IMG/VR virus record: IMGVR_UViG_3300046009_010890
Location: 1 to 22,498 of that record
DNA from: a virus
Direction: 5' to 3' (one strand)
Length of the DNA: 22,498 nt
Notes under the pieces: model-generated
What the model was told of the DNA's origin: nothing
Database searches by the model: none
The model's input: the letters and a program-made list of their open reading frames with translations, nothing else
Position numbers and translations under genes: made by a program
Shown here: positions 2 through 22,498 of the stretch, piece after piece
Layout of the letters: the number at the start of each line of letters is the position of its first letter
How positions within the stretch are numbered: position 1 is the first letter of the stretch

Positions 2-2116
2 CCATTATTTGGGCCTAGAAGTAAGTATGAATATTTAATAATGAGAGCTCGGATGGATGATTTATTCACTGATAAATCATTAGAAGATTTCACAGCCAAT
101 AATTTAATTCAATATCCTAAAATATTAGATAAAGTTTCTATTCTAACAGGAGAAACTTCTGTTATACCACAAGAACTGTTGTTAAAACATATTGAAAAAT
201 TTCCTAAATCAAATCAAACTTCAATACTTAAAAATATATTTGAAAATAGTTTAGATCTTAGCCTTCTTTCTTCTGATGCTTACTCATGGGAATTAAAAAA
301 ATTATTAGTAAAGTTTAATAAATTTAAACTTAAATCTGATGAAAAAATATATGTCACTAAGGACGGAAGTACTATAGTTGTTTTAACAATAAAACCAAAT
401 AATATAAAAGCTGATTTATATAAAGAAGATGATGAATTTAAAGATATAGATCTTAATAAAAACACAGCTACTAAATATTTAGAAGATTATCCTGAAATAG
501 ATACAATACCATTTAAAGTATTATTAAAACTAGCAGCCAAAGACGCTATAAGCCAAAGTGCAATTAAAAAAGCTATAGACACAGCTAAAAACTCACCTGA
601 ATCTGCTTTAATATTTAAAGAATTAGAAGATGGTTCTTCTTTACTTATAGATACTAATGCGTTTGATGCGTATAAAATAACAGGTAGTAAAATATCAAAA
701 GTCCCATTTAATAGTGAAGAAGTGCAAACAGCTCTATCAGCCTCAGGTGACAATGAAAGAGCGGCGGATAATATTAAAAAATTATTTTTAGATGCAGTAG
801 GCGGCTATAATAGTAGAATTCCAGATGATATAGATAAAGAAACTCTTTTAAACATCACTAGAAATATACCATTAAATAATAGAATTATAGTAAAAAATCA
901 AATACAATATCTTATTACCTCCGCTGATAATGATTCTGATGAAATATCATTTAATTTACTCCCCATTTCACTTAGCAGCGTTAGTAATACTGTTTATGCT
1001 TTTAAAGGAGAAGATTGGAAAAAACCTGTAGCTCAAAGATGGAATGAACCACTAACTGCTGAACAATTTCAAAAAATATTTGATTATCTTAGAAGTCAAA
1101 ATATAACATATAGTGATAGTAATCTTAGAAGTATATTTAATAATCGAAACTATCAAGCTATTAAAAATTTTACAGAATCTAACCCACCACTTGACCCAGC
1201 TAATATTTTAAGACCTGTAGTATACCAAGGTGGAGTTTATTTATTTAATACTCAAACCCCAAGAAATGGTTTTAGATTAAGCCCACAATCAGGTAGATTA
1301 CTACAAAAAGTATTTACAGCTAGAGATATTGCTGCTATTACAGGCCAACAAACCACTAGAGCTGCTAGAACACCTAGAGCCGCGGCCACAGGAGCAGCAG
1401 CTGGTCAAACTGCACCTGCAGCCGCACCAGCAGCTGGAGGAAACGCTGGAGCTACTCCTACATTAATAGCTAACGCTGGTTTAACAAGAGGATTTGAGGC
1501 CTTACCAGCAGCGTTTAGAAATAGAATAGCCGCTGGGACACCAGTTAACGTTAATTCAAGTAGAACAGCTAGATCTAGACAAGCATCATTAGGTAATAGA
1601 GGACGAGTTATAGGAGCTATAAATGCAGGACAAGATCAATTAGTAATAATACAAATGGGTGATAATACATTTGCTCAAGCTTCATTCCAACCAGATGCTA
1701 GACATTATATTATTACTCCTACTAGAGCTCTTAATATGGGTAGAGTAGGTAACTTTGTAGATTTTATATCTAATAATGCTAACTTAACTGAAACACAAAA
1801 AGAAGCTCTTACAGCGATAGCATCATTTGCAACCACTCCTGAAGAATTAGAAGAAACTAAACCTTATAAAGATTTGGAGATAACAGAAAATTATGTTATC
1901 CGTGAATTTAATGAGAATGTAGATCCTATAGAATTAAAATGGCATCGTGATATGGAAGATCGTTTAGTAGAAATAGTAGGTAATACTGACTGGCAATTAC
2001 AGCTAGAAGATCAATTACCAACTTCTATGAATCAACCCATATTTATACCTAAGGGTGAATGGCATCGTGTTATCAAAGGAACAGGAACCTTAACATTGAA
2101 AATAAATAAAAAATGA
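2..2116 (+). CDS. Large multidomain phage protein with cupin-like C-terminus (5' partial)
   Basis: The frame is open to the window edge with no stop before the ATG at 41, and the codons upstream read like normal coding sequence, so I treat the gene as starting outside the window; 41 is the first in-window ATG (691 aa from there). The N-terminal ~440 residues (counted from 41) match no family I recognise. Residues ~440-480 are a low-complexity Ala/Thr/Pro/Gly linker. The last ~75 residues look like a small cupin-like beta barrel: a W-H-R-D-M-E-D-R stretch, then a W-Q-x-Q-like strand, then I-P-K-G-x-x-H-R and G-T-G-T-L, giving two His and acidic residues as possible metal ligands. Similar C-terminal domains occur in marine T4-like phage proteins, as I recall. 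Its stop overlaps the next ATG (ATGA), suggesting translational coupling. It may be a virion or tail-associated protein; function unknown. Confidence 0.8.
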   Translation, partial: PLFGPRSKYEYLIMRARMDDLFTDKSLEDFTANNLIQYPKILDKVSILTGETSVIPQELLLKHIEKFPKSNQTSILKNIFENSLDLSLLSSDAYSWELKKLLVKFNKFKLKSDEKIYVTKDGSTIVVLTIKPNNIKADLYKEDDEFKDIDLNKNTATKYLEDYPEIDTIPFKVLLKLAAKDAISQSAIKKAIDTAKNSPESALIFKELEDGSSLLIDTNAFDAYKITGSKISKVPFNSEEVQTALSASGDNERAADNIKKLFLDAVGGYNSRIPDDIDKETLLNITRNIPLNNRIIVKNQIQYLITSADNDSDEISFNLLPISLSSVSNTVYAFKGEDWKKPVAQRWNEPLTAEQFQKIFDYLRSQNITYSDSNLRSIFNNRNYQAIKNFTESNPPLDPANILRPVVYQGGVYLFNTQTPRNGFRLSPQSGRLLQKVFTARDIAAITGQQTTRAARTPRAAATGAAAGQTAPAAAPAAGGNAGATPTLIANAGLTRGFEALPAAFRNRIAAGTPVNVNSSRTARSRQASLGNRGRVIGAINAGQDQLVIIQMGDNTFAQASFQPDARHYIITPTRALNMGRVGNFVDFISNNANLTETQKEALTAIASFATTPEELEETKPYKDLEITENYVIREFNENVDPIELKWHRDMEDRLVEIVGNTDWQLQLEDQLPTSMNQPIFIPKGEWHRVIKGTGTLTLKINKK

Positions 2117-2496
2117 AAATTAAAGACTTAAAACGCATCATCAGAGAAGAATTATCATCAATTCAAGAATTAGGATTTGACTACCCAGGTAAAGTAAAAT
2201 CACAAGATTTAGATCAAGAATCTGATGATTACCGTCGTGGATACACTGATGGTTTAAGAGATGGGTATGATAGAGGATTTAAAGATGGACAAGTTGGAGA
2301 TTTAGATGAGAATGCCCCAGCTAAAGAACCAGGAACTAAAGAAGCTCCAACAAAACCAGATACTGGAGAAAAAGCAAAACCAAGAAGAGGATTTGAACCA
2401 AAACCAGGTGCTGAACCTAAGCCTAAAGCTAAAACTTTAAAGGAAGAAGACATGATTAAAAAAATCGCTGATCGTTTTAAAAGTCTTAAAAAATAA
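2113..2496 (+). CDS. Small charged protein with type-A N-terminal tag and GX3 repeat
   Basis: 127 residues, starting in a 4-nt ATGA overlap with the upstream gene and ending in a TAATG overlap with the downstream one, so it is probably translated as part of one unit. Residues 1-19 form the type-A peptide found in several neighbours, with I10-R11-E12 and a following I17-Q18-E19 that resembles a gp21-type cleavage site, although P1' is Leu. Residues ~41-62 place Gly at nearly every fourth position (G-YTD-G-LRD-G-YDR-G-FKD-G), like the GX3 repeats of Yae1-type proteins. The rest is Pro/Lys/Glu-rich, low complexity and probably disordered. I do not recognise a family. A packaged internal head protein is a plausible inference. 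Confidence 0.8.
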   Translation: MKIKDLKRIIREELSSIQELGFDYPGKVKSQDLDQESDDYRRGYTDGLRDGYDRGFKDGQVGDLDENAPAKEPGTKEAPTKPDTGEKAKPRRGFEPKPGAEPKPKAKTLKEEDMIKKIADRFKSLKK

Positions 2497-3507: not shown

Positions 3508-3882
3508 ATGAAACATTCTAGATTAATAGAAATAATTAGAGAAGAATTACAAAGTATTCTAAAAGAAGAATCTACTCAATATAATATTGAAGGATTACTT
3601 CTTACTAATACTGAAGAACGTCCTCAAAAAGACATATTATCTGATATACGTTCATTACCTGGTGTAACAATTGTATCAAGTAAAGATTATGATTTATCAG
3701 GTGAAACATCAGCATTTAGTAATCCTAACTACTATACAATAATTAAAATTAAAGTAGATCCACACCCATATCCTGACGGATTTAAAGATGAAGATTTACA
3801 ACAATTGTTTAAGGATATTAGAGCAATTAAAGGTGTTAGAAACTTTAAATTAAACAAATCAGTAGAGAAAAAAACAGTATAA
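3508..3882 (+). CDS. Small protein with type-A tag and ferredoxin-like fold pattern
   Basis: 124 residues. Residues 1-20 are a type-A tag with I10-R11-E12 and a [L/I]-x-E motif at L18-K19-E20. The body has a beta-alpha-beta rhythm: a helix plus P-G-V-T-I-V-S-S strand, a Y-T-I-I-K-I-K-V strand, then a helix and G-V-R-N-F-K-L strand. This suggests a small alpha+beta sandwich of ferredoxin-like type, which is a structural guess only. An AGAGGG string about eight bases before the start could act as a ribosome binding site, although it also lies in the coding end of the upstream gene. Two bases separate the genes. The start is well placed because it aligns the tag exactly with those of the other tagged proteins. 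Confidence 0.8.
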   Translation: MKHSRLIEIIREELQSILKEESTQYNIEGLLLTNTEERPQKDILSDIRSLPGVTIVSSKDYDLSGETSAFSNPNYYTIIKIKVDPHPYPDGFKDEDLQQLFKDIRAIKGVRNFKLNKSVEKKTV

Positions 3883-3899: not shown

Positions 3900-4406
3900 A
3901 TGGAAAATTATCTTGAGCTTAAGAAAATACAAAAAATTGCCGGAGTAATAACTGAAGGTGAGTATAGAATGATTATTGAAGCTCTTCATGATGAAACTTT
4001 AGATGAATCATTAAAAAGTTGGTTACTAGGTGGTCTATTAACATTAACCACATTAGCAGGTATTGGTAAAGTATATCAAATGGACCAGCAAGCTAAAGCT
4101 GATAAAGCTAAGCAAACTGAGTATTATGATAATGTTCTTAGTAAAGAATTAGCTAAATTAGATGACCAAGACTTTGGAGAAATGGGATATGACATTGATA
4201 AAAAGACTAATGCTTTTTCTGTATCCCCAAATAGTAAACTTACACCTCAAGAAATATTTGACACTATGGCTTCATATGCTAAAGATTATATTAAAGCACA
4301 CCCAGATGAATTCTCAGTTGGAGAAAATGGAGGAATATTTTGGAATAAAGGACAATGGAGCTTTAATCAATTTACTAACTCAAAATATACTTACCAATAT
4401 AAATAA
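3900..4406 (+). CDS. Type-B-tagged protein with one hydrophobic segment
   Basis: 168 residues. Residues 1-22 are a type-B peptide: K-K-I-Q-K-I-A-G-V-I-T-E followed by G20-E-Y22. I17-T18-E19|G20 fits the T4 gp21 cleavage rule. Residues ~40-58 (S-W-L-L-G-G-L-L-T-L-T-T-L-A-G-I-G) form one hydrophobic, Gly-containing stretch long enough to span a membrane. After it come a Lys/Ala/Gln-rich helix and a C-terminal domain of ~90 residues that I do not recognise. The start has no Shine-Dalgarno sequence and is preceded by an A-rich leader (AAAAACAAAAAT). Removal of the tag would leave the hydrophobic segment near the new N-terminus. A head-packaged, later ejected membrane-interacting protein is possible. 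Confidence 0.85.
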   Translation: MENYLELKKIQKIAGVITEGEYRMIIEALHDETLDESLKSWLLGGLLTLTTLAGIGKVYQMDQQAKADKAKQTEYYDNVLSKELAKLDDQDFGEMGYDIDKKTNAFSVSPNSKLTPQEIFDTMASYAKDYIKAHPDEFSVGENGGIFWNKGQWSFNQFTNSKYTYQYK

Positions 4407-4453: not shown

Positions 4454-5338
4454 ATGAAAATTAACAAATTACGCACTCTTATTCGTGAATCTATTAACGA
4501 GTATATTAAAGAAATAGATGAAGCTGGCACTAGAGCTATGTATGAAGCTAAAATGAAAGCTTGTGATAAAGCTATGGAAGATAGAAAGAAAAAAATTGAA
4601 ATGGCTGAGTCATTAGAAGAAATGCAGGGCATGTTTGATGAAACCAAAATGGGTGAATTAAAGAAAGAAATTAAAATGCTTGAAAAGCAAAAAGCTAAAT
4701 ATGGCAAAATGCTTGAAAAGATGAATAAAGGAAAAGAAGTAGTAACTGAAGAACCAACTGAAGAAGCACCAGTAGAAGAAGCTGATGTTACTGCTAAAAT
4801 GAGTGTGTCTGATGAAGCAGTTGAAGAAACAGCTATCAATGAGTCATTCCTTAAAATGCAAAAATTAGCAGGTGTAATTACAGAAAGTCAGTACAATAAG
4901 AAAAAAAGTTTGATTGAGAATGAGTTAGGTGAAGCTTCTTTTATAGATAAAGCTAAATCTGCTATTGGGGCAGAGCTTAAAGAACCAAAAGAATTTAATT
5001 CTGGGAAAATTAGTGGGAAAACATTAAATTCTGACCAAAAAGATGTAAAAAATAAAATAATTATGGCTTTAAATGATTTTAATAAAAATATTAAAGATAA
5101 TTTTTTTAAAGAAACAATAAATGTTGATGGATTAGTAGATAACGGTTTAATCATTAACACAACAGAAGGTGATAGAACAAAAGGACAAACAAAGAAATTT
5201 GAAGAAGAATTAAAAAGAAAAGGTCTTAAAGTATCATCAACTTCAAAATCTAGTACATCTCAAATAGATTATGGTGAATATCGATCAGATACCCGTGATG
5301 TTACTCAAATTACTACAACTATGACTGTAACTAAATAA
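4454..5338 (+). CDS. Double-tagged protein (type A at N-terminus, type B internal)
   Basis: 294 residues in three parts. Residues 1-23 are a type-A tag with I10-R11-E12 and a cleavage-like I21-D22-E23|A24. Residues ~24-125 are a Lys/Glu-rich coiled-coil-like stretch ending in an acidic Pro/Glu/Val/Thr linker. Residues 129-160 are a type-B tag (F132 to E144, then S145-Q-Y), with I142-T143-E144|S145 as a second possible cleavage point. The C-terminal ~130 residues form a separate unknown domain ending in a Ser/Thr-rich strand-like region. The layout looks like a fusion of two tagged cargo proteins, or a polyprotein that the prohead protease would split into two or three pieces. The type-B part is closely similar, also at nucleotide level, to the start of the next gene. 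The start lacks a Shine-Dalgarno sequence and follows an A-rich leader. Confidence 0.85.
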   Translation: MKINKLRTLIRESINEYIKEIDEAGTRAMYEAKMKACDKAMEDRKKKIEMAESLEEMQGMFDETKMGELKKEIKMLEKQKAKYGKMLEKMNKGKEVVTEEPTEEAPVEEADVTAKMSVSDEAVEETAINESFLKMQKLAGVITESQYNKKKSLIENELGEASFIDKAKSAIGAELKEPKEFNSGKISGKTLNSDQKDVKNKIIMALNDFNKNIKDNFFKETINVDGLVDNGLIINTTEGDRTKGQTKKFEEELKRKGLKVSSTSKSSTSQIDYGEYRSDTRDVTQITTTMTVTK

Positions 5339-5384: not shown

Positions 5385-6086
5385 ATGAATAAAGAATTTC
5401 TCAAAATGCAAAAATTGGCTGGTGTAATTACCGAAGCTCAATATAATCAAAGAAAAAGCTTAATTGAAAATAAAATTATTAATGCTGATCAAGCATTAAA
5501 AAATTCTGAAATACAAGCTGCTGGGGAAAAATTAGCTGATAATCCAACTTTACTTCAAAAAGCTATAAAGGATTTAGAAAAATTAAATATTAATAAAGCT
5601 ACTTTAGAAAAAATTGCCCAAGCTTATAAAAATGGTAAAGATATAAGTAATATCATTGATGATGAAACTAAAAATATAGTCAATAAGCTAGACGAAATTG
5701 ACTCACCAGAGAAATATTCAACAAAACAAGGATTACAAGGAGCAGCTTTAGGTGGACTTACTTCTGGAGTTGTTGGAAGTCTTTTACCTACTTTTATTGC
5801 TGGCCAGGATCTAAGTGCCCCACAAACAATGATAGCCACAGCTATATCAGCAGTAGTATTAGGAATAGCAGGAGCTATTGGGGGTTATAAAGCAGCTAAA
5901 AAATCTGCTGAAGATGATTATAAGTATAAAGCTTTAAAATTAATAAAACAATTTGGTAGTAAAGAAAAAGCAATTCAACACGTTAAAGATGAGTTAGAAA
6001 AAAGAAAACAACAACTTCCTCAACTTGGATATAGTGGTGAAATGGAGTATACATCAACAATTCAAGCGTTAAATGATTTAAAATAA
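5385..6086 (+). CDS. Type-B-tagged protein with two Gly-rich hydrophobic segments
   Basis: 233 residues. Residues 1-17 are MNKEFLKMQKLAGVITE, the clearest type-B tag, followed by A18-Q-Y, so I15-T16-E17|A18 matches the gp21 rule exactly. Residues ~20-110 are charged and helical. Two hydrophobic segments rich in Gly and Ala lie at ~117-139 and ~148-168, the second ending in G-I-A-G-A-I-G-G-Y, a glycine-zipper-like pattern seen in membrane-inserting and pore-forming proteins. A charged helical tail of ~65 residues follows. The gene is bracketed by the two copies of a 36-bp direct repeat. No Shine-Dalgarno sequence is present. A packaged protein that inserts into the host membrane at DNA entry is an inference; a scaffold-associated structural role is the alternative. 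Confidence 0.85.
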   Translation: MNKEFLKMQKLAGVITEAQYNQRKSLIENKIINADQALKNSEIQAAGEKLADNPTLLQKAIKDLEKLNINKATLEKIAQAYKNGKDISNIIDDETKNIVNKLDEIDSPEKYSTKQGLQGAALGGLTSGVVGSLLPTFIAGQDLSAPQTMIATAISAVVLGIAGAIGGYKAAKKSAEDDYKYKALKLIKQFGSKEKAIQHVKDELEKRKQQLPQLGYSGEMEYTSTIQALNDLK

Positions 6087-6089
6087 AAT

Positions 6090-6125
6090 ATATAGACAGA
6101 TTCATAGCCTGTTGACTTAACAAAA
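6090..6125 (+). repeat. 36-bp direct repeat, copy 2
   Basis: Second copy of the repeat at 5344-5379, with one mismatch (G at 6114). It starts three bases after the stop of the tagged gene and ends 4 nt before an ATG that opens only a 22-codon frame through a hairpin. Together the copies bracket the 233-aa gene. Confidence 0.9.
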
Positions 6126-6137
6126 TATTATGGAGCT

Positions 6138-6162
6138 GTGGCCCACCCTAAAAGTGGGCCAC
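6138..6162 (+). terminator. Strong hairpin, possible terminator
   Basis: A perfect 9-bp GC-rich stem, GTGGCCCAC with GTGGGCCAC, closes a 7-nt loop. An outer GAGC (6133-6136) / GCTC (6172-6175) pairing is also possible. It lies in the 118-nt gap between the tagged block and the oxidoreductase gene. There is no good T-run after the stem, so a structured RNA or a processing site is an alternative to an intrinsic terminator. Confidence 0.45.
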
Positions 6163-6167
6163 CTTAG

Positions 6168-6198
6168 TTTGGCTCTTAGGATAAATTTATTATATTAA
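6168..6198 (+). promoter_or_regulatory. Candidate class-1 promoter (variant)
   Basis: TTTGGC (6168-6173), 16 nt, then TTATATTAA (6190-6198), a near copy of the exact elements at 7530, 8769 and 11851, with one base less spacing and one mismatch in the second box. It ends only 6 nt before the ATG of the oxidoreductase, so a transcript from it would be leaderless or nearly so. It is weaker than the other three. Confidence 0.4.
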
Positions 6199-6204
6199 TA
6201 CTAT

Positions 6205-7500
6205 ATGGAAAAGAAAATAGTAATTATAGGTGCGGGAGTAGCAGGTATAAATGCAGCTACTAAGTTAGTCGATAACGGCTACCCAGGTGAATTGATCACC
6301 ATTATAGACAAAGGAAATGACCCACATAATCGTTTACCTGAAGAAGTAATGACAGGTATGTTAGGTGCTGGTGGGTGGAGTGATGGTAAATTAACATACC
6401 ATACCGCAATCGGAGGTGTATTATCTAAGTATTGTGGTGAAGACAAAGCAATGGAATTGATGGACCAAGTTATTAGTAACTTTAGACGTTTCCACCCTAA
6501 ACCAGAAGAAATATTTTGCTCTGATCCACAAGCAGAACCTGATTTTATTAAACCATACTTTGGATTACGTTTATTCCCAGTGTGGCATATTGGTTCAAAT
6601 TATCTACATGAGATCGCTAAAGCATGGTATTCATATTTAATTGATAAAGGTGTTAAATTTAAATGGAATGCTGAAGTTTATGCTATTGATTTTGAAAATG
6701 CAAGAGTATTAGGTAAATTTTTAGATAAAGAAAACCATGAGTTAGAATACAGATATGATGAACTTATATTTGCTGTAGGTAAATCAGGTATTGATTTTGG
6801 TAAACAATTAGCTGATGATTACAAATTACCAACAGAACCAAAATCAGTTCAAATTGGAGTTCGTTTTGAAGCACCACAAAAATACTTCCAAAAACTAATT
6901 GATGTTAGTTATGATTTTAAACTATATCAAAAGTTTGATAACATATCATTACGTTCATTCTGCACTAACAATAACGCAGCTTATGTAGCGGTAGAAGAAA
7001 CATATGGTGATATTAGTTACAATGGTCATGCTAAGAAAGGTGAAGAATTTAGAAACGATATGACTAACTTTGGTATTCTAATGGAAATCAAAGGTATTGA
7101 AAATCCATTTGAATGGTCAAGAGATGTAGTTAATAAATTACAAATCGATGGTAAAGGATTATATTATAGCCCATCTAGAACACCAGGTATAACATCTGAG
7201 GGTAATAAGGTAACAGCAACTCAAATATCTAATTTAAAAATATTTGAAGAAGCAATGGGTAAATATGCTAAATATATTACTGACTTTATTGACCAAATGA
7301 ATAAAATATTTGAATTCAGAAATGATTATGGAATTTATATACCTGAAGTAAAGTATTTAAGTCCTGAACCATTAGTAGACTATAAAAACTTAGCATTAGT
7401 TGATTATCCTAATGTACATTTTGTAGGAGATGCGTTATCTGCTCGTGGTATTACTGTAAGTGGAGCGCAAGGAATTTATGTAGCTGAGTCGCTTTTGTAA
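6205..7500 (+). CDS. FAD-dependent oxidoreductase (COG2509-like)
   Basis: 431 residues. The N-terminus is a dinucleotide-binding Rossmann fold: I-V-I-I-G9-A-G11-V-A-G14 followed by an acidic residue at the end of the second strand (D35 in T-I-I-D-K). The C-terminus has the second FAD-contact motif, H-F-V-G408-D409-A-L-S-A-R-G, followed by S-G-A-Q-G. The long middle region and overall layout resemble the uncharacterised 'NAD(FAD)-utilising dehydrogenases' of COG2509; that assignment is from memory. A soluble flavoenzyme with unknown substrate is expected. No signal peptide is visible. Codon use does not stand out from its neighbours. Such an enzyme is unusual in a T4-like phage and stands at the left edge of an accessory block with its own promoter-like elements. 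Confidence 0.85.
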   Translation: MEKKIVIIGAGVAGINAATKLVDNGYPGELITIIDKGNDPHNRLPEEVMTGMLGAGGWSDGKLTYHTAIGGVLSKYCGEDKAMELMDQVISNFRRFHPKPEEIFCSDPQAEPDFIKPYFGLRLFPVWHIGSNYLHEIAKAWYSYLIDKGVKFKWNAEVYAIDFENARVLGKFLDKENHELEYRYDELIFAVGKSGIDFGKQLADDYKLPTEPKSVQIGVRFEAPQKYFQKLIDVSYDFKLYQKFDNISLRSFCTNNNAAYVAVEETYGDISYNGHAKKGEEFRNDMTNFGILMEIKGIENPFEWSRDVVNKLQIDGKGLYYSPSRTPGITSEGNKVTATQISNLKIFEEAMGKYAKYITDFIDQMNKIFEFRNDYGIYIPEVKYLSPEPLVDYKNLALVDYPNVHFVGDALSARGITVSGAQGIYVAESLL

Positions 7501-12752: not shown

Positions 12753-13271
12753 ATGAAACGTACTGAATTAGAAGAATTAATTAGAGAAACTATATTTGAA
12801 ATTTTAGACGAAGGAGCAGCTACTCAAGCAGCTCTAGCCGCCGGAGCTAGCAACCCATCAGCGGCTGCTAAGACAGCTAAAGACGCAGCTGCGAAAGATC
12901 CAACAGGTACATCTACTATAGTTGGACCTAAAGGTAGTAAAGTTATTGATAAAGCAACTCCTTTAGAAGAAAAAAAAGAAGAAGATGAGGAAGTAGAAGA
13001 TACTTATGGTAAAGAAGATGAAGATGATAAAAAAGATGCTAAAATAAAAGCAGCTAAGCCTTCAAAAGCTGAACTTAAAAAGAATGCTAGTATAGCTACT
13101 ATAACAGATGCATTAGCTAAAGCAACTAAAGAGTTTAAAGAAATTACTGAGAAGTATAAAAAAGCAGAAGGTAAAGAAAAAGCTAATTTTTTAGCTAAAT
13201 TAAAAGATTTAACACCAAAGATACAAACACTAAAAAAAGCTTTAGAAAAAAAAGAGGAAGCTCTTAAATAA
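12753..13271 (+). CDS. Type-A-tagged Ala/Lys/Glu-rich protein before the terminase
   Basis: 172 residues. Residues 1-20 are a type-A tag with I10-R11-E12 and L18-D19-E20|G21, a clean match to the gp21 cleavage rule. The rest is low complexity: an Ala-rich part (22-50), an acidic Glu/Asp/Lys part (~70-100) and a Lys/Ala/Leu helical coiled-coil-like tail (~105-172). Such charged, Lys-rich composition fits a DNA-contacting internal head protein. It lies 21 nt upstream of the terminase large subunit, where T4 has the small terminase gene 16, which is of similar length, so a diverged small terminase is the alternative. The tag argues for a head-internal protein. Confidence 0.8.
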   Translation: MKRTELEELIRETIFEILDEGAATQAALAAGASNPSAAAKTAKDAAAKDPTGTSTIVGPKGSKVIDKATPLEEKKEEDEEVEDTYGKEDEDDKKDAKIKAAKPSKAELKKNASIATITDALAKATKEFKEITEKYKKAEGKEKANFLAKLKDLTPKIQTLKKALEKKEEALK

Positions 13272-13292: not shown

Positions 13293-14864
13293 ATGAGTCA
13301 AGATATAAAGCAAATAATTCGTGAAGAATACCTGAAGTGCGCCTCTAATCCAGCGCACTTCATGCGTAAATACTGCTATATCCAACATCCACAACGTGGT
13401 AGAGTATTATTCAATCTATACCCATTCCAAGATAAAGTACTTAATTTATGGAAAGATAACCCATATGATATAATACTTAAATCAAGACAGTTAGGTATAT
13501 CAACATTAGTAGCAGGTTATTCATTATGGTTAATGTTATTCCATAAAGATAAAAACGTCTTATGTATAGCTACTAAACAAGAGACAGCTAAAAACATGGT
13601 AACGAAAGTTAAATTCATGTTTGAAAACTTACCTTCATGGTTAAAAATAACAGCTGAAGAAAATAATAAACTAACATTACGGCTAAGTAATGGATCTCAA
13701 GTTAAAGCCGTATCAGCAGCGGGTGACGCAGGGCGATCTGAAGCAGTTTCACTTCTCATTATAGATGAGGCTGCGTTTATTGATGGTATTGCTGAGATAT
13801 GGGCATCTGCTCAACAAACCTTAGCCACTGGGGGAGGAGCAATTGTGTTATCTACTCCATACGGTACTGGTAACTGGTTCCATCAGACATGGGTCAGAGC
13901 AGAAGCAGGTGAAAACCAATTCTTACCCATTAAATTACCATGGTATGTTCATCCTGAACGAGATGAAAGTTGGAGAAAAAAACAAGATGAACTATTAGGT
14001 GACCCAAGATTAGCAGCTCAAGAATGTGATTGTGACTTTAATACATCAGGTGATGTAGTATTTTATCCTGAATATCTTGAATTTATCACTCAAACTTATA
14101 TTAAAGATCCCTTGGAAAGACGGGGTGCTGATCGTAACTTATGGATATGGGAACCAGCAGATTACACCCGTAGTTATATGGTTGTAGCTGATGTTGCTCG
14201 AGGAGATAGTAAAGACTTCTCTGCGTTTCATATTATTGATATAGATACTAATACTCAAGTAGGTGAATATAAAGGACAATTATCACCTAAAGAATTTGGT
14301 TATTTGTTAGTAGCAATAGCAACAGAATATAATGAAGCATTGTTAGTAATCGAAAATAATAATATAGGATGGGCGACATTAGACGCAGTTCAGGAAAGAG
14401 GATATAGAAATTTATATTATTCTCCTAAAACTGAAGCAACAACTGCAGAATCTTATTTAGAAAGATTAGACGACCCATCAAGACTAGTGCCTGGTTTTAC
14501 AATGAATTTAAGAACCAGACCATTAGTTATTAATAAGTTTAGAGAATATATTGGTGATAAAAGTGTCATTATACAATCTAAACGTTTAGTTGAAGAAATG
14601 AAAGTGTTTGTGTGGAAAAATGGTAAAGCAGAAGCACAATCAGGTTATAATGACGACTTAGTTATGAGTTTTGGAACAGCAATGTATATAAGAGACACAG
14701 CTCTTAAGTATAAATCACAAGGTATTGATTTAGCTAGAGCAATGTTATCAAATATATCAAACACCAGACCTAATTCTCAAGGAGCTTATACCCCAAACGC
14801 GTACAATAATCCATACCAAATTAATTACGGTCACGGAACTGAGGACATTAGCTGGTTACTGTAA
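13293..14864 (+). CDS. gp17: Terminase large subunit (T4 gp17-like)
   Basis: 523 residues, somewhat shorter than T4 gp17. It packages DNA into the prohead at the portal vertex, using ATP, and cuts the concatemer. The N-terminal ATPase domain has the variant Walker A S64-R-Q-L-G-I-S-T71, Walker B L-L-I-I-D158-E159 and the coupling motif L-S-T-P-Y-G. The C-terminal RNase H-like nuclease has D300 (V-V-A-D-V-A-R-G-D), E354 (L-V-I-E-N-N-N) and D454-D455 (Y-N-D-D-L), the expected acidic metal-binding residues. All motifs are intact. It is followed at 26 nt by the portal gene; the sheath and tube genes that T4 has in between are absent here. The N-terminal I-I-R-E-E superficially resembles the type-A tag but is followed by conserved terminase sequence. 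Confidence 0.96.
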   Translation: MSQDIKQIIREEYLKCASNPAHFMRKYCYIQHPQRGRVLFNLYPFQDKVLNLWKDNPYDIILKSRQLGISTLVAGYSLWLMLFHKDKNVLCIATKQETAKNMVTKVKFMFENLPSWLKITAEENNKLTLRLSNGSQVKAVSAAGDAGRSEAVSLLIIDEAAFIDGIAEIWASAQQTLATGGGAIVLSTPYGTGNWFHQTWVRAEAGENQFLPIKLPWYVHPERDESWRKKQDELLGDPRLAAQECDCDFNTSGDVVFYPEYLEFITQTYIKDPLERRGADRNLWIWEPADYTRSYMVVADVARGDSKDFSAFHIIDIDTNTQVGEYKGQLSPKEFGYLLVAIATEYNEALLVIENNNIGWATLDAVQERGYRNLYYSPKTEATTAESYLERLDDPSRLVPGFTMNLRTRPLVINKFREYIGDKSVIIQSKRLVEEMKVFVWKNGKAEAQSGYNDDLVMSFGTAMYIRDTALKYKSQGIDLARAMLSNISNTRPNSQGAYTPNAYNNPYQINYGHGTEDISWLL

Positions 14865-14890: not shown

Positions 14891-16774
14891 ATGGCAGATA
14901 CTAGTGTATTTTCAAGGCTACAGCGACTATTCGCTACTGATGTAATAATCAGAAATGCTGGAGGAAATGAATTAAAAGTATTGGATGTTAATAGCATCCA
15001 AATGACTGGAGAATATCAAACAAATTCTCTTATAGATAGATATAATCGAATCTATTCAAGTAACAGCACATCTCTTTTTGGTGCTCAATTAAACATTAAC
15101 TGGAAATATCTACGCACTCAAATCTACTCAGACTATGATGCTATGGATACAGATGCAATTATCTCTTCTGCCTTAGATATTATTGCTGATGAATGTACAC
15201 TTAAAAATGATATGGGTGAAGTACTTCAAATTAGAAGTAGTGATGAAGACACACAAAAGATTTTATACAACTTATTCTATGATGTATTAAATATTGAGTT
15301 TAATTTATGGTCTTGGATTCGCCAAATGTGTAAATATGGTGATTTTTTCTTAAAATTAGAAATTGCTGAAAAATTTGGAGTATATAATGTTATACCATAC
15401 ACAGCATATCATATTGAAAGACAAGAAAATTATGACTATAAAAAACCAGCTGAAGTAAGATTCGCTTTTTCACCAGATGGTTATGCTGGTGGTTCAGGTT
15501 ACTATGGAATTGGAGGTCAAGGTACTCAATCATCTAGAAAAGACGATAATAAAATATTCTTTGATAACTATGAAATGGCTCACTTCAGATTGATTACTGA
15601 TGTGAACTATTTACCTTATGGTAGATCATATTTAGAGCCTGCTCGTAAATTATATAAACAATACATTTTGATGGAAGATGCTATGTTAATCCATCGTATT
15701 GTTCGTGCCCCAGAAAAACGTATTTTCTATATTAATGTTGGTTCAATTCCACCTAATGAAGTAGAAAACTTCATGCAAAAGACTATCAATACAATGAAGA
15801 AAACTCCATTTATTGACCCTCAAACAGGTGAATATAATATGAAGTATAATCAACAAAATTTATTAGAAGATTTTTACATCCCAGTAAGAGGTAATGATAG
15901 TGCTACTAAAATTGAACCTACTAAAGGAATGGATTACACAGCTATTGAAGATGTGAATTATTTAAGAGATAAATTATTCGCTGCTTTGAAGATACCTAAA
16001 GCATTCATGGGTTATGAAAAAGACTTAACAGGTAAAGCAACATTAGCAGCTGAAGATATCCGTTTTGCTCGTACAATTGACCGTATTCAAAGGATCATAC
16101 TATCAGAATTATATAAAATTGCTTTAGTTCACTTATACACTCAAGGATATAGAAATGAAGCATTAACTAATTTTGAATTGTCATTAACTACTCCTTCTAT
16201 CATTTATGATCAAGAAAGAATAGCATTAATGAAGGAAAAAGTAGATTTAGCTCGTAATATTATTGAAACTAAAATATTGCCTACTGATTGGATTTATGAT
16301 AATATATTCCATTTAAGTGAGGATCAATTTGATGAATATAGAGACTTAATCGCTGAGGATCAAAAGCGTATCTTTAGAATGAAACAAATTGAAAACGAAG
16401 GTAACGACCCATTAGAATCAGGTAAGTCTTATGGTACACCTCATGATTTAGCAACATTATATGGTGCTAGTAGAATGGGTAGTTTACCTGATGGATATGA
16501 TGAAGATCTTAAATTAGGTCGTCCCGAAGAAAAAGCATCAAATATGGGAACTCAAAAGAATGCGTTTGGTACTGATAGATTAGGTAACAAAGGTATGAAG
16601 AAAGGTGATGATACTGGTGAAGATAAATCATTAAAAAATAATTTTAAAGGTGGATCACCATTAGCTCTTGAAAATATGCTTAAAAATAAACCATTATTTG
16701 AAAGTTTAGACAAGAAAATATCAATGAAAAAAGACGATTCTTCATTATTAGATGAGTCTCAAATACGAGAATAA
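14891..16774 (+). CDS. gp20: Portal protein (T4 gp20-like)
   Basis: 627 residues, about 100 longer than T4 gp20. It forms the dodecameric ring at the head vertex, starts prohead assembly and is the channel for DNA. Recognition rests on overall pattern and context: an early D-A-M-D-T-D-A-I-I-S-S-A-L-D-I-I-A-D-E-C segment, the M-A-H-F-R-L and P-Y-G-R-S-Y-L-E-P-A-R-K stretch, the I-H-R-I-V-R-A-P-E-K-R-I-F-Y segment with I-N-V-G, and a helical stem-like region after it. The C-terminal ~100 residues are Lys/Asp/Gly-rich low complexity and probably disordered; this tail accounts for most of the extra length. The start has no Shine-Dalgarno sequence. It lies between the terminase and the head-core genes. 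Confidence 0.94.
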   Translation: MADTSVFSRLQRLFATDVIIRNAGGNELKVLDVNSIQMTGEYQTNSLIDRYNRIYSSNSTSLFGAQLNINWKYLRTQIYSDYDAMDTDAIISSALDIIADECTLKNDMGEVLQIRSSDEDTQKILYNLFYDVLNIEFNLWSWIRQMCKYGDFFLKLEIAEKFGVYNVIPYTAYHIERQENYDYKKPAEVRFAFSPDGYAGGSGYYGIGGQGTQSSRKDDNKIFFDNYEMAHFRLITDVNYLPYGRSYLEPARKLYKQYILMEDAMLIHRIVRAPEKRIFYINVGSIPPNEVENFMQKTINTMKKTPFIDPQTGEYNMKYNQQNLLEDFYIPVRGNDSATKIEPTKGMDYTAIEDVNYLRDKLFAALKIPKAFMGYEKDLTGKATLAAEDIRFARTIDRIQRIILSELYKIALVHLYTQGYRNEALTNFELSLTTPSIIYDQERIALMKEKVDLARNIIETKILPTDWIYDNIFHLSEDQFDEYRDLIAEDQKRIFRMKQIENEGNDPLESGKSYGTPHDLATLYGASRMGSLPDGYDEDLKLGRPEEKASNMGTQKNAFGTDRLGNKGMKKGDDTGEDKSLKNNFKGGSPLALENMLKNKPLFESLDKKISMKKDDSSLLDESQIRE

Positions 16775-18171: not shown

Positions 18172-18963
18172 ATGAAAACACTACAAGAACAATATAACCT
18201 TATTAAAGAAGGTAAAGGAAATAAAGATTATTTCCTAAAAACAGCTTTACGCCAATTTCCAGATATGTTATCACCTGTTAACACATTTGATGATACTGTT
18301 AGAATTCTTAAAAATAGAAGTATCATTAATGAGAATACTTGGGGTGTAGTTACTACAGGCAAAAAACAAGATTGGCATTCTATCTTTAATGAGAATATGA
18401 CTGCTCTTAAAGAAGAAAAGGAAGCTAAAGCCGAAGAAAAAGAAACTACTAAAGAAGTTACAGACATGGCTACTCGTGGTTATGATTATAAAGACGAAAA
18501 AAACTATGATAACGTATTTGGTGAAGAATTTTTAAAAGGATTCTATACTGAAATGGGTGATATAAAAAATAAAGATAAAAGTGTAAATGAATTAAGAGCA
18601 ATTGTAGCTAAAAATTTAGCTAAAGATTGTAATTATTATGTTAAAGATGGACAGTTTGGAATTAAAGGAGTAGGATACACAACTGAAGCGCCTGGTTTAG
18701 GTGAACCAAAAGAACCTAAAGGTAAACATAAGTCATCAGGATATGGTGATTTAAAAGAATCAGTATTACGCTCTCAAATTCATCTTTTAATTAAAGAAGT
18801 ATTAGCTGAAGCAAAAGAACCACCTAAAGCTGCTTTAACTGCCTCAGAAAAATTATATGATAAATTAGGAAGCGTTAAAAAAGCTATAGACGCACTTCCA
18901 GAAAAATATAAAGAATATAAAGACACATTAGAAGCTCATCTTAAATTTAAATACAGAGACTAA
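18172..18963 (+). CDS. Head-region protein with T4-internal-protein-like N-terminus and internal tag
   Basis: 263 residues. The N-terminus MKTLQEQYNLIKE|G resembles the capsid-targeting peptide of T4 internal protein III as I remember it (MKTYQEFIAE|A); I11-K12-E13|G14 fits gp21 cleavage. Residues ~20-65 are folded-looking (F-P-D-M-L-S-P-V-N-T-F-D-D-T-V), followed by an acidic/Lys linker, a domain around 98-165, a Gly/Pro/Lys linker, and at 197-213 a second tag of type A (S-V-L-R-S-Q-I-H-L-L-I-K-E-V-L-A-E|A). A helical tail ends the protein. The stop overlaps the protease ATG (TAATG), so it is translated together with the enzyme that would cut it. I infer a core protein processed during head maturation. 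Confidence 0.83.
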   Translation: MKTLQEQYNLIKEGKGNKDYFLKTALRQFPDMLSPVNTFDDTVRILKNRSIINENTWGVVTTGKKQDWHSIFNENMTALKEEKEAKAEEKETTKEVTDMATRGYDYKDEKNYDNVFGEEFLKGFYTEMGDIKNKDKSVNELRAIVAKNLAKDCNYYVKDGQFGIKGVGYTTEAPGLGEPKEPKGKHKSSGYGDLKESVLRSQIHLLIKEVLAEAKEPPKAALTASEKLYDKLGSVKKAIDALPEKYKEYKDTLEAHLKFKYRD

Positions 18964-19574
18964 TGAAACAAGTATTAATAGAAACCCAATATTTTACTGC
19001 TAAACCTATTAAATTAGCTGAAGGAAAATCTTCAACAGGTAATCCTTTAGTTCAAGGTATTTTAGCCACAGCTGAAGTAAAAAATGGGAATGGTAGATAC
19101 TATTCTAAAGACTTGTGGGAACGTGAGATTAAGAAATATATGGAGTGTGTTAATGCTAATAGAGCATTAGGTGAATTAGACCACCCAGACTCATCTATTA
19201 TCAATTTAAAAAATGTTTCTCACAATATTAAAAAGATTTGGTGGGATGGAGACCATGTAATGGGTGCGATTGAAATTTTACCTACACCATCAGGTAATAT
19301 ATTAGCTGCTTTATTTGCTAATAATATACCAGTAGGTGTTTCATCACGTGGTATGGGCTCATTAAAACAAATGGGTGAATTAATGGAAGTACAAGATGAC
19401 TTTGAGTTGTTATGTTGGGACTTTGTATCAACTCCTTCAAACCCAGGTTCGTATATGAAAGAAGTAGGTATGATGAATGAATCTAAAACACCTCAACAAA
19501 TTAATAAGTATCAAAAAGTAAATTCTGTTATCACAGATATATTATGTGCTAATGGAACTTGCCCAATATTTTAA
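18963..19574 (+). CDS. gp21: Prohead maturation protease (T4 gp21-like)
   Basis: 203 residues, close to the T4 length. It is a serine protease packaged inside the prohead, where it cuts scaffold, core and capsid proteins after [L/I]-x-E. Catalytic candidates are His74 in E-L-D-H-P-D-S, Ser127 or Ser128 in G-V-S-S-R-G, and Asp153 in C-W-D-F-V-S-T-P-S, in the order expected for the prohead protease family. N-G-N-G-R-Y-Y near residue 45 is typical of the same fold. The C-terminal ~30 residues, with two Cys, are not conserved to my knowledge and may be a propeptide. The start overlaps the upstream stop. The gene is followed by a strong terminator. Confidence 0.95.
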   Translation: MKQVLIETQYFTAKPIKLAEGKSSTGNPLVQGILATAEVKNGNGRYYSKDLWEREIKKYMECVNANRALGELDHPDSSIINLKNVSHNIKKIWWDGDHVMGAIEILPTPSGNILAALFANNIPVGVSSRGMGSLKQMGELMEVQDDFELLCWDFVSTPSNPGSYMKEVGMMNESKTPQQINKYQKVNSVITDILCANGTCPIF

Positions 19575-19775: not shown

Positions 19776-20918
19776 ATGAACAGAGAAATGCTTAAAGAAG
19801 CAATCGCTGAAGCTAAGACCATCAAGGAAACTGCTATCGCGAATGCTAAAGTCGCTCTTGAAGAAGCTTTTACTCCTACTTTAATGGCAAAATTTGCTGA
19901 AAAGTTAAATGAGACTGAAGACGAAGAAACGACTAATGAAACCTACAGCTTGGAAGAGGAAGGATTAGAAGAAGATTTTAATCTAGAAGAAATCTTAGCT
20001 GAACTTGACGAAATGAATTATGAAGAATTAGAAGAAACTGAAGACAAACTTGAAGAAGATTTAATGCTTGAAGAAATGTCTGATGAAGAAATCGAAGAAC
20101 TTATCTTAAAAGTATTACGTCAAGAAATTGAGTCTGGTAACATTGAAGCCGGAGAAAATTTTGAAGAAGAAGAAACTGAAGTTGAAGACATGGAAGACAT
20201 GGATGATATGGGTGGTGAAGAAGAAGAAGAGGAAGAAGAAGTTAAATTAGATGAGCTTTTAGCTGAAATCTTAGGTGAAGAGGAAAAAGTTGAAGAGGGT
20301 TTACTTGATAAAATTAAATCTTTCTTTGGTAGTGTACTTTCAAATTTTGAAAATGAAAACAAAGATGTTATCACTAAATTTCAAAATAGTAAAAAAACTA
20401 AAGAAGATCAAATTGAATTTATTAATGCTCTTAACAGCTGGGGAAGAAAAAACCAAATCGAAGGTCCATTTTTACAAGCTGCTAGAACAGCTGCTAGTGA
20501 AAAATATGGATTAGGCCTAAAAGGAGGTTCAGACACCGCAACTATGGGTACTTTTGAAGAAGCTAAAGAAATGGAAGAAACAATTAATGAATTACGTGCT
20601 GAACTTAATGAAGTTAATTTGTTAAACGCTAAACTTCTTTACACAAACAAAATTTTCAAAGCAAAGAATCTTACCGAATCTGAAAAAGTAAAGGTTTTAA
20701 ACACATTCGACAAAGCCGAAACAGTAAAAGAAGTAAAATTAGTATATGAAACTTTAACTGAGTCTTTAAAAGCATCAACTGCTAAAAAGAACACAATTAA
20801 AGAATCATTAGGATCAGCTTCTAGAACAGTAAGTGCTCCTGTTGAATCAAAACAACCAATTATTGAAGTAAATGATGCTTTTGCTCGTATGCAAAGATTA
20901 GCAGGTTTGCGTAAATAA
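19776..20918 (+). CDS. gp22: Prohead scaffold protein (T4 gp22-like)
   Basis: 380 residues. It is the main core protein around which gp23 assembles, and it is then destroyed by the prohead protease. The N-terminus has E-A-I-A-E|A, a gp21-type site (I10-A11-E12). Residues ~48-170 are very acidic (long Glu/Asp runs), as usual for the family. Residues ~260-340 contain the helical E-L-R-A-E-L-N-E-V-N-L-L-N-A-K-L-L-Y-T-N-K-I-F and L-T-E-S-E-K-V-K-V-L segments recognised in marine T4-like scaffolds. Residues ~175-255, starting G-L-L-D-K-I-K-S-F-F-G, look like an inserted segment. The C-terminus D-A-F-A-R-M-Q-R-L-A-G-L-R-K matches the type-B tag core but stops before the I-T-E site. The gene has a Shine-Dalgarno sequence and is followed at 41 nt by the capsid gene. 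Confidence 0.92.
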   Translation: MNREMLKEAIAEAKTIKETAIANAKVALEEAFTPTLMAKFAEKLNETEDEETTNETYSLEEEGLEEDFNLEEILAELDEMNYEELEETEDKLEEDLMLEEMSDEEIEELILKVLRQEIESGNIEAGENFEEEETEVEDMEDMDDMGGEEEEEEEEVKLDELLAEILGEEEKVEEGLLDKIKSFFGSVLSNFENENKDVITKFQNSKKTKEDQIEFINALNSWGRKNQIEGPFLQAARTAASEKYGLGLKGGSDTATMGTFEEAKEMEETINELRAELNEVNLLNAKLLYTNKIFKAKNLTESEKVKVLNTFDKAETVKEVKLVYETLTESLKASTAKKNTIKESLGSASRTVSAPVESKQPIIEVNDAFARMQRLAGLRK

Positions 20919-20959: not shown

Positions 20960-22498
20960 ATGGAAACAATTCAATCATTAGTTGAATCTGCAAACCCATG
21001 GAAATCACTTCAAAGCGACGCTGCTAAGTTAGCTAACAAGTGGTCTAAAACTGGCCTTTTAGAAGGTTTGGGTGAGGATGTCAACCGTAACAACATGGCT
21101 TTGATGTTAGAAAACCAAGCAAAGCAATTAGTAGTAGAATCTTCTGCTACTGGAACTCAATCTTATTTTACCTCTGGTAACTCAGGTGAAAACTGGGCTG
21201 GTATTGCATTACCATTAGTACGTAAGGTATTCGGTCAAATCGCAGCGAAAGAATTCGTTAGTGTTCAACCAATGAACTTACCTTCTGGTCTTGTATTCTT
21301 CTTAGATTTCCAATATGGTACTACTAAGAACCCATTCACCTCAGGTGATTCTTTATATGGTAACCGCAATGCTTCTAGTACTACAACACCATTTGCTAAT
21401 ACAGCTGCTAATGGTGGATTATATGGTGCTGGTCGTTTTACTTACTCTACTAACCAATTCTCAGCTTCTGTAGCTTCTGGTTCTGTAGCCGCTTCTGAAG
21501 CAGTTATTGGCACAGCTACTTGGGCTATGATTGGGTATGACTCAGATCTATCAGCTTCTTTAGGTACTGGTAAGTTATTTACAGCTACTATTTCAGCTAG
21601 TGTTCTTAGCAACCCAGACTTAGATGCTGTTCGTGGATTTATAATTAGTGGTTTAACTAATCAATCTAGTATAGCTGCTGGTAGTCTTTTAAATGCTTAT
21701 ACTACTTATGATTCTACAACTAACACTATTAGATTTGTTGTTAGCGCATCTGCTGCTCCAACTGGTACAGCTTTAGTTGAGTACAACAAGAAAACTACTG
21801 ATCAATATCGTGGTGATTTTGAAGATACATCTGCTACTTCATATTCAACACCTAATGCTGAAAGTGCTACAACTATTGTTATCCCAGAGATTAACATTTC
21901 TATGCAATCTCAAGCAATCACAGCTAAAACTAAGAAGTTAAAAGCTGCTTGGACACCTGAATTCGCACAAGATTTGAACGCTTACCAAAACTTGGACGCT
22001 GAAGCTGAATTAACTAACATCATGAGTGAGTACATCTCTTTAGAGATTGATCTTGAAATCTTAGACATGTTAATTGAAAATGTAACTTCAACTAATACTG
22101 AATATTGGTCAGCTGTTAACAATGTTACTTTGAATGCTACTACTTTACCAACAGCTAGTTTAGGATTCTACAACACTCAAGGTCAATGGTTCCAAACTCT
22201 TGGTACCAAAATCCAGAAGTTAAGTAACAAGATCCATCAGTTAACTTTACGTGGTGGTGCTAACTTTATTGTAGTATCTCCAACAGTAGCTACTATCATC
22301 GAATCTATCCCAGGATTTGCTTCTAACTCTAATGGAGACGCAGCAGATATGGAATATGCATTTGGTGTACAGAAAGCTGGTCAATTCAACAGCCGTTACA
22401 CTGTTTATAAGAACCCTTACATGACTGAAAACACTATCTTAGTTGGTTTCCGTGGTAAGCAGTTCCTAGAAGCAGGTGCTGTATTCGCTCCATATATT
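20960..22498 (+). CDS. gp23: Major capsid protein (T4 gp23-like), 3' partial
   Basis: 513 codons from the ATG to the window edge without a stop; the gene continues beyond. It is the main shell protein of the head. The first ~60 residues are the expected removable prosequence (M-E-T-I-Q-S-L-V-E-S-A-N-P-W ... L-E-N-Q-A-K-Q-L-V-V-E|S-S), with V-V-E|S at about residue 60 as the likely cleavage point, a small departure from [L/I]-x-E. The shell core then opens with P-L-V-R-K-V-F-G and V-Q-P-M-N-L-P-S-G-L-V-F, which is diagnostic. Residues ~125-290 are Ser/Thr/Ala-rich and correspond in position to the variable inserted domain of gp23. The C-terminal part seen here (L-E-I-D-L-E-I-L-D-M-L, then G-G-A-N-F-I-V-V-S-P) is again conserved. 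No Shine-Dalgarno sequence; an A-rich leader precedes the ATG. Confidence 0.96.
   Translation, partial: METIQSLVESANPWKSLQSDAAKLANKWSKTGLLEGLGEDVNRNNMALMLENQAKQLVVESSATGTQSYFTSGNSGENWAGIALPLVRKVFGQIAAKEFVSVQPMNLPSGLVFFLDFQYGTTKNPFTSGDSLYGNRNASSTTTPFANTAANGGLYGAGRFTYSTNQFSASVASGSVAASEAVIGTATWAMIGYDSDLSASLGTGKLFTATISASVLSNPDLDAVRGFIISGLTNQSSIAAGSLLNAYTTYDSTTNTIRFVVSASAAPTGTALVEYNKKTTDQYRGDFEDTSATSYSTPNAESATTIVIPEINISMQSQAITAKTKKLKAAWTPEFAQDLNAYQNLDAEAELTNIMSEYISLEIDLEILDMLIENVTSTNTEYWSAVNNVTLNATTLPTASLGFYNTQGQWFQTLGTKIQKLSNKIHQLTLRGGANFIVVSPTVATIIESIPGFASNSNGDAADMEYAFGVQKAGQFNSRYTVYKNPYMTENTILVGFRGKQFLEAGAVFAPYI

Follow-up and report, generated by a model that had tools for sequence, protein, structure and literature searches.

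A gp22-like prohead scaffold ends in a short peptide, probably for docking, that is shared with putative cargo proteins

The tail of the herpesvirus scaffold is set off from the body of the protein by a protease site. In bacteriophage T4, the prohead protease gp21 cleaves after L/I-x-E, and the first 10 residues of the N-terminal peptide of IPIII suffice for entry into the head, the peptide later being removed by gp21; residues 4 and 7 are important for targeting and residues 8 and 10 for processing, and with an aspartate at position 10 loading reportedly persists although release fails (PMC9026906). According to the T4 review literature, the targeting sequence binds the core, not the shell (PMC9026906, PMC7411985), and a review of the T4 head describes the sorting of core proteins into the prohead as mysterious and the structure of the core as unresolved (PMC9958956). 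The C-termini of the herpesvirus scaffold and protease bind the major capsid protein (PMC8539031), and fusions to the P22 scaffold bring foreign cargo into capsids (PMC9962691).

The window analysed here is a viral contig of 22.5 kb (22,498 nucleotides) with a T4-like order of head genes. A terminase (13293-14864) and a portal (14891-16774) are followed by a gp21-type prohead protease at 18963..19574 on the + strand (Pfam Peptidase_S77, E=1.7e-28; PHROG head maturation protease, E=3.5e-55) and by a gp23-like major capsid protein at 20960..22498 (+; Pfam Gp23, E=1.3e-61), which is truncated by the end of the window. Between protease and gp23 lies an open reading frame at 19776..20918 (+) encoding an acidic protein of 380 residues, which we name a gp22-like prohead scaffold or core protein on the basis of gene order and composition. 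It has no match in Pfam or PHROG, and comparison with nine T4-type gp22s by hhalign gave no significant similarity (probability 1.3%, E=0.04). The order gp17-gp20-x-gp21-gp22-gp23 of the window is identical in Flavobacterium phage immuto and Microcystis phage Mel-JY01, and both of these phages, along with more than 60 viral contigs, contain relatives of this gp22. A conserved helical region of the protein spans residues 260-336.

The C-terminus of gp22 reads ...P-I-I-E-V-N-D-A-F-A-R-M-Q-R-L-A-G-L-R-K. A preliminary description of this DNA had pointed to its ending, F-A-R-M-Q-R-L-A-G-L-R-K, and to the resemblance of that ending to tags of sequence F-L-K-M-Q-K-L-A-G on other proteins. Both observations hold. 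The ending occupies residues 369-380 (nucleotides 20880-20915, the stop codon extending to 20918), and both tags of that sequence, at 4847-4873 and 5397-5423, match it; a third, weaker match, L-K-K-I-Q-K-I-A-G, is found at 3918-3944. The core common to gp22 and the cargo tags is F-A-R-M-Q-R-L-A-G, residues 369-377 of gp22 (20880..20906, +). It was scored with a nine-position profile made from 26 distinct cargo cores, from which C-terminal occurrences, and hence all gp22 tails, had been excluded. On this cargo-only profile the gp22 core reaches 29.1 bits, third among all 9-mers of the window's genes; the tags of the window score 31.0, 31.0 and 15.9 bits and the best non-tag 9-mer 9.0. The maximum over 200 shuffles of the proteome was 16.8 bits, and over 1000 shuffles of gp22 it was 13.6 bits. 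The likeness of the gp22 core to the tags is real and not the product of chance. When the profile was run over an initial 16 phage contigs, whatever reached 16 bits or more was either the C-terminus of a gp22 or a site resembling a tag. Residues 7-15 of the portal, F-S-R-L-Q-R-L-F-A, bear a faint likeness to the core; the portal N-terminus was considered as a core carrier and rejected, its 9.0 bits falling inside the shuffle noise.

Relatives of gp22 were gathered by whole-protein similarity and then with a model of the body only (residues 1-335), which recovers gp22 in 27 phage records and five window-size contigs. Each complete gp22 from the body-only search closes with (I/L/V)-x-E followed, after a short spacer, by the core or a distant variant of it. 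Pooling every contig gives 44 distinct gp22s that match the cargo profile, and all 44 have the core at the C-terminus. A distant gp22 branch, represented by five contigs, ends in F-L-R-M-K-D-[LI]-M or F-K-E-M-K-R-L-W instead of the core; cargo tags of this branch's own type (F-L-R-M-K-D-L-M-G) were sought and none was found, its longest contig being 66.7 kb. An alignment of 24 gp22s that reaches down to 23% identity was inspected over its last 45 columns. The linker preceding E364 and the core is variable across the 24 sequences, R371 is near-invariant (23/24), and L375, A376 and G377 are kept in 20-21 of them. E364 is one of 12 invariant columns and one of two invariant glutamates, in a protein containing 83 glutamates.

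This glutamate bears on the suggestion, made in the preliminary description, that gp22 carries the core without a cleavage site. The I-T-E-x-x-Y of the tags is indeed absent downstream of the gp22 core, but I-I-E stands upstream of it, on the body side, at residues 362-364 (20859..20867, +). As E364 is third in I-I-E, in keeping with the T4 gp21 motif, and is present in 24 of 24 gp22s, the gp22 tail has a predicted gp21-type cleavage site before the core, which would free the tail. Four residues separate I-I-E from the core in the gp22 of the window, and the spacing is usually four among its relatives as well. A further site, I-K-E, lies 21 residues ahead of I-I-E, at residues 341-343 (20796..20804, +); of the conserved (I/L/V)-x-E sites that precede the tail it comes first, and E343 is kept in 23 of the 24 gp22s. 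Given this second near-invariant site, the end of gp22 is probably cut twice. The gp21-type protease of the window is the presumed cutter of (I/L)-x-E sites.

The predicted releasable docking tail is V-N-D-A-F-A-R-M-Q-R-L-A-G-L-R-K, residues 365-380 (20868..20915, +). In a structure model of gp22 built with 19 sequences (mean pLDDT 62.6), residues 336-362 form a disordered linker and residues 367-375 a short helix, the latter at a pLDDT of about 61-70. In the model of a cargo protein with an internal tag (mean pLDDT 59.8), one helix runs as far as residue 138 and is interrupted at A-G, after which a second helix begins. Both are models of low confidence, and both would be compatible with a linear docking motif. 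A search for a solved structure of T4 gp22 found none.

Among the putative cargo proteins of the window, tags containing this core, here called type B, are found in different positions. A protein of 233 residues begins with M-N-K-E-F-L-K-M-Q-K-L-A-G-V-I-T-E (5385..5435, +; 31.0 bits), where a cleavage-type site is present only downstream of the core. The tag of a 294-residue protein is internal, I-N-E-S-F-L-K-M-Q-K-L-A-G-V-I-T-E at residues 128-144 (4835..4885, +; 31.0 bits), and here sites flank the core on both sides and both are kept in homologues. A protein of 168 residues has a diverged N-terminal tag, M-E-N-Y-L-E-L-K-K-I-Q-K-I-A-G-V-I-T-E (3900..3956, +; 15.9 bits); a homologue on contig L170 has I-K-R-M-Q-K-L-A-G. 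A second, T4-like class of N-terminal tag, type A, with the pattern M-K-x-x-x-L-x-x-[IL]-I-R-E, is carried by several proteins of the window (2113-2160, 3508-3560, 4454-4510 and 12753-12810), and the protein encoded at 4454-5338 bears tags of both classes.

If the sites serve to free a protein body from its tag, they are expected between tag and body. Their position was counted in contigs fetched via gp22, not via the tag sequence, after near-duplicates had been collapsed. N-terminal tags have (I/L/V)-x-E downstream in 15 of 16 cases and upstream in 1 of 16, C-terminal cores have it upstream in 13 of 13 and downstream in 0 of 13, and internal tags have it on both sides in all four. The association of site position with tag position gives a Fisher P=2e-7 each way, on counts that are not independent, many of the contigs being closely related. 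A larger set of tags agrees with this rule, although it is biased to downstream sites, having been selected in part by a DNA pattern that contains I-T-E. In the pooled contigs, the site precedes the core in 43 of the 44 distinct gp22s and follows it in none. Eleven distinct proteins other than gp22 have a C-terminal core tail like that of gp22, nine with the site upstream and two with it downstream; in two of the 11, M-N-E stands in place of (I/L/V)-x-E. In some large cargo proteins the site is missing beside the N-terminal tag, and tags with another sequence in place of I-T-E often have a different L-x-E (L-N-E, L-G-E) a few residues further on. Most C-terminal cargo tails finish I-I-K, V-I-K or L-I-K, and the gp22s of immuto and Mel-JY01 finish like them, in I-I-K or I-V-K.

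The core is portable. When 40 tagged proteins are aligned, the mean column identity is 8% and the only near-invariant columns are the M, Q, L, A and G of the core, with little in common beyond the tag; a scan of the same 40 proteins against Pfam and PHROGs gave no match. Direct evidence of an add-on module comes from a family of 800-940 residues in which a gp22-like tail is present in some orthologues and absent from others. Its members have an N-terminal tag, to which some (L268/L384, L276/L386 and L391) add a C-terminal P-(V/I)-K-E-S-F-T-R-M-Q-K-L-A-G-(V/I)-I-K, and L387, L388 and L389, lacking this tail, end about 20-35 residues earlier. The loci of the family include L268:2104-4518 and L276:16474-19251, and those members that were scanned have no Pfam or PHROG match.

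We consider it probable that the short peptide at the end of gp22 serves for docking, that the same peptide gives cargo proteins a tag for entry into the prohead, and that a protease then releases it. The peptide would be carried on the flexible linker, and its core, F-x-R-M-Q-[K/R]-L-A-G, would fold as a small helix and bind a partner in the prohead. The sequence itself points to no particular partner among the candidates gp23, another gp22, gp20 and gp21; most likely the partner would be the gp23 shell, bound on its inner face as by the P22 and herpesvirus scaffolds, and less likely another core protein. Cargo bearing the peptide, whether N-terminal, internal or C-terminal, would enter the prohead at the docking sites of the scaffold, and we infer that a single binding site serves both. 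After assembly, the gp21-type protease would cut the (I/L)-x-E sites on the body-facing side of the peptide; cutting at E364 and E343 would free the scaffold, and cargo would be left loose inside the head.

Seen against the described systems, the gp22 tail would work like the T4 targeting sequence and like a tail of the herpesvirus or P22 type, yet it is a distinct peptide. The T4 capsid-targeting sequence (M-K-T-Y-Q-E-F-I-A-E in IPII/IPIII) is likewise a short, portable terminal peptide found on diverse internal proteins of the head, and both it and the type-B tags end in a prohead-protease (I/L)-x-E site. The sequences differ, however, the T4 consensus from the N-termini of IPI-III being M-K-T-[Y/F]-x-E-F and that of type B F-x-[RK]-M-Q-K-L-A-G, and while the T4 peptide is N-terminal, type B is also internal and C-terminal and is shared with the C-terminus of the scaffold. 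The herpesvirus scaffold similarly has a short C-terminal peptide and is set free when the maturation protease cuts it, but its sequence and cleavage motif are different, and the review consulted (PMC8539031) describes the tail for the scaffold and the protease and not for cargo of diverse kinds. In P22, too, the C-terminus of the scaffold docks to the shell and brings in fused cargo. There, however, the coat-binding helix-turn-helix is a larger folded domain and the cargo fusions are man-made, whereas here natural proteins carry a core of about nine residues. What the gp22 tail has in common with the herpesvirus and P22 types is a short conserved C-terminal peptide placed after a variable, predicted disordered linker. 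The literal peptide MQKLAG had no occurrence in the literature searched.

A comparable tail may exist in T4 itself. Nine diverse T4-type gp22s (L080, at 6118-6927, and L201-L208) have an invariant C-terminal tyrosine, Y262 in T4, as one of six invariant columns. These proteins, from T4, cyanophages and vibriophages, also have a short conserved C-terminal peptide, several with an upstream x-x-E, so that scaffolds in general may keep a conserved tail; their core, M-A-x-Y-L-x-x-L, is unlike that of the gp22 of the window. Y-x-x-F occurs in the T4 targeting peptide as well. Parallel scaffold mimicry in T4 is possible, the sharing between scaffold and cargo having been examined within the phage group of the window. 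More tentatively, and with rather less confidence than in a shared docking peptide as such, one peptide could act both as the shell anchor of the scaffold and as a universal entry tag that competes with the scaffold, and the T4 peptide may mimic the Y-x-x-hydrophobic end of gp22.

Use of the core by the scaffold at its C-terminus and its borrowing by cargo at the N-terminus had been proposed in the preliminary description, with the capsid shell or the portal as the possible binding partner. The shared module stands, but on cargo the core is internal and C-terminal as well. The scaffold tail is also more widespread than the tags: a gp22 core with no tag detected is found in Mel-JY01 (190 kb) and in contigs G011, G010 and G013, and among the complete gp22s of tag-bearing contigs none is without the core. 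Presence of the core on scaffolds without tags, and never the reverse, favours borrowing from scaffold to cargo, and this distribution suggests a tendency for cargo to have acquired the scaffold tail later, in records that are often fragments. Recent copying of DNA from the end of gp22 into cargo genes was considered and rejected, the cores being identical at 14-20 of 27 nucleotides with mixed codons and no sign of such copying.

Covariation of gp22 C-termini with the tags, raised at the same time, did not emerge as a lineage-specific signal in 17 phages (permutation P=0.28). Scaffold and tag agree at 5.60 of nine positions on average within the same phage and at 5.55 between different phages. 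The tags are near-fixed at M-Q-K-L-A-G, as a conserved receptor would explain, and gp22 drifts at three positions (M to W/F, Q to K/R). On sequence grounds, these data would fit one shared site or separate sites alike. A variant core, L-A-F-G-K, occurs in a small-cargo family (L353, L370, L372 and L383) and in some gp22 tails. Five contigs have gp22 tails ending R-E-L-A-F-G-K-K, and both long contigs of the five, G019 and G048, combine an LAFG gp22 with M-Q-K-L-A-F-G cargo, the one parallel change seen. LAFG cargo also occurs alongside an LAG gp22, however (G033, G035 and G042), so LAFG as a marker of covariation is only suggestive.

Alternatively, the peptide might bind the body of the scaffold, making gp22-gp22 contacts within the core which cargo would join in the same way, with the shell uninvolved. 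T4 internal proteins co-purify with gp22, the T4 targeting sequence is described as having affinity for the core (PMC9026906, PMC7411985), and gp22 itself has a conserved helical stretch, residues 260-336. We nevertheless think this unlikely, as the gp22 tail is modelled as a separate helix beyond a disordered linker, albeit in a single-chain model in which intermolecular contacts are invisible, and the better studied tails of the herpesvirus and P22 scaffolds bind coat.

It is more doubtful still that the core is a handle for recruiting the gp21 protease, marking what gets cut rather than what enters. Such a handle would suit the general occurrence of the core beside (I/L/V)-x-E, on the body side and at near-fixed spacing, but gp23 and many type-A tags have (I/L)-x-E without the core, the core stands alone, with no adjoining site, in some large cargo proteins, and L/I-x-E alone is enough for T4 gp21 (PMC9026906). 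It would also leave unexplained why the cutting of cargo requires the core, unless the cargo has entered the prohead beforehand. That the tag is instead a SHOCT-like helix-turn-helix oligomerisation domain, with I-T-E a helix cap and the likeness to gp22 one of helix type, is very improbable: two tags of the window do match Pfam SHOCT (PF09851) at 18.0 and 15.5 bits, under the 27-bit cut-off, and the model of the 4454-5338 protein has a helix break at A-G with a second helix after it, but four other queries, the gp22 tail among them, gave no SHOCT match, and the half following I-T-E is variable and is absent from gp22 and most C-terminal tags.

If gp22 and cargo do share a docking peptide, as we favour, the partner of the gp22 tail, once found, will probably prove to be the receptor for cargo. 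A core of at least 16 bits with (I/L/V)-x-E on the body side provides a rule that predicts virion-internal proteins across a large group of uncultured phages, and the core suggests itself as a compact tag with which proteins may be loaded into phage heads.
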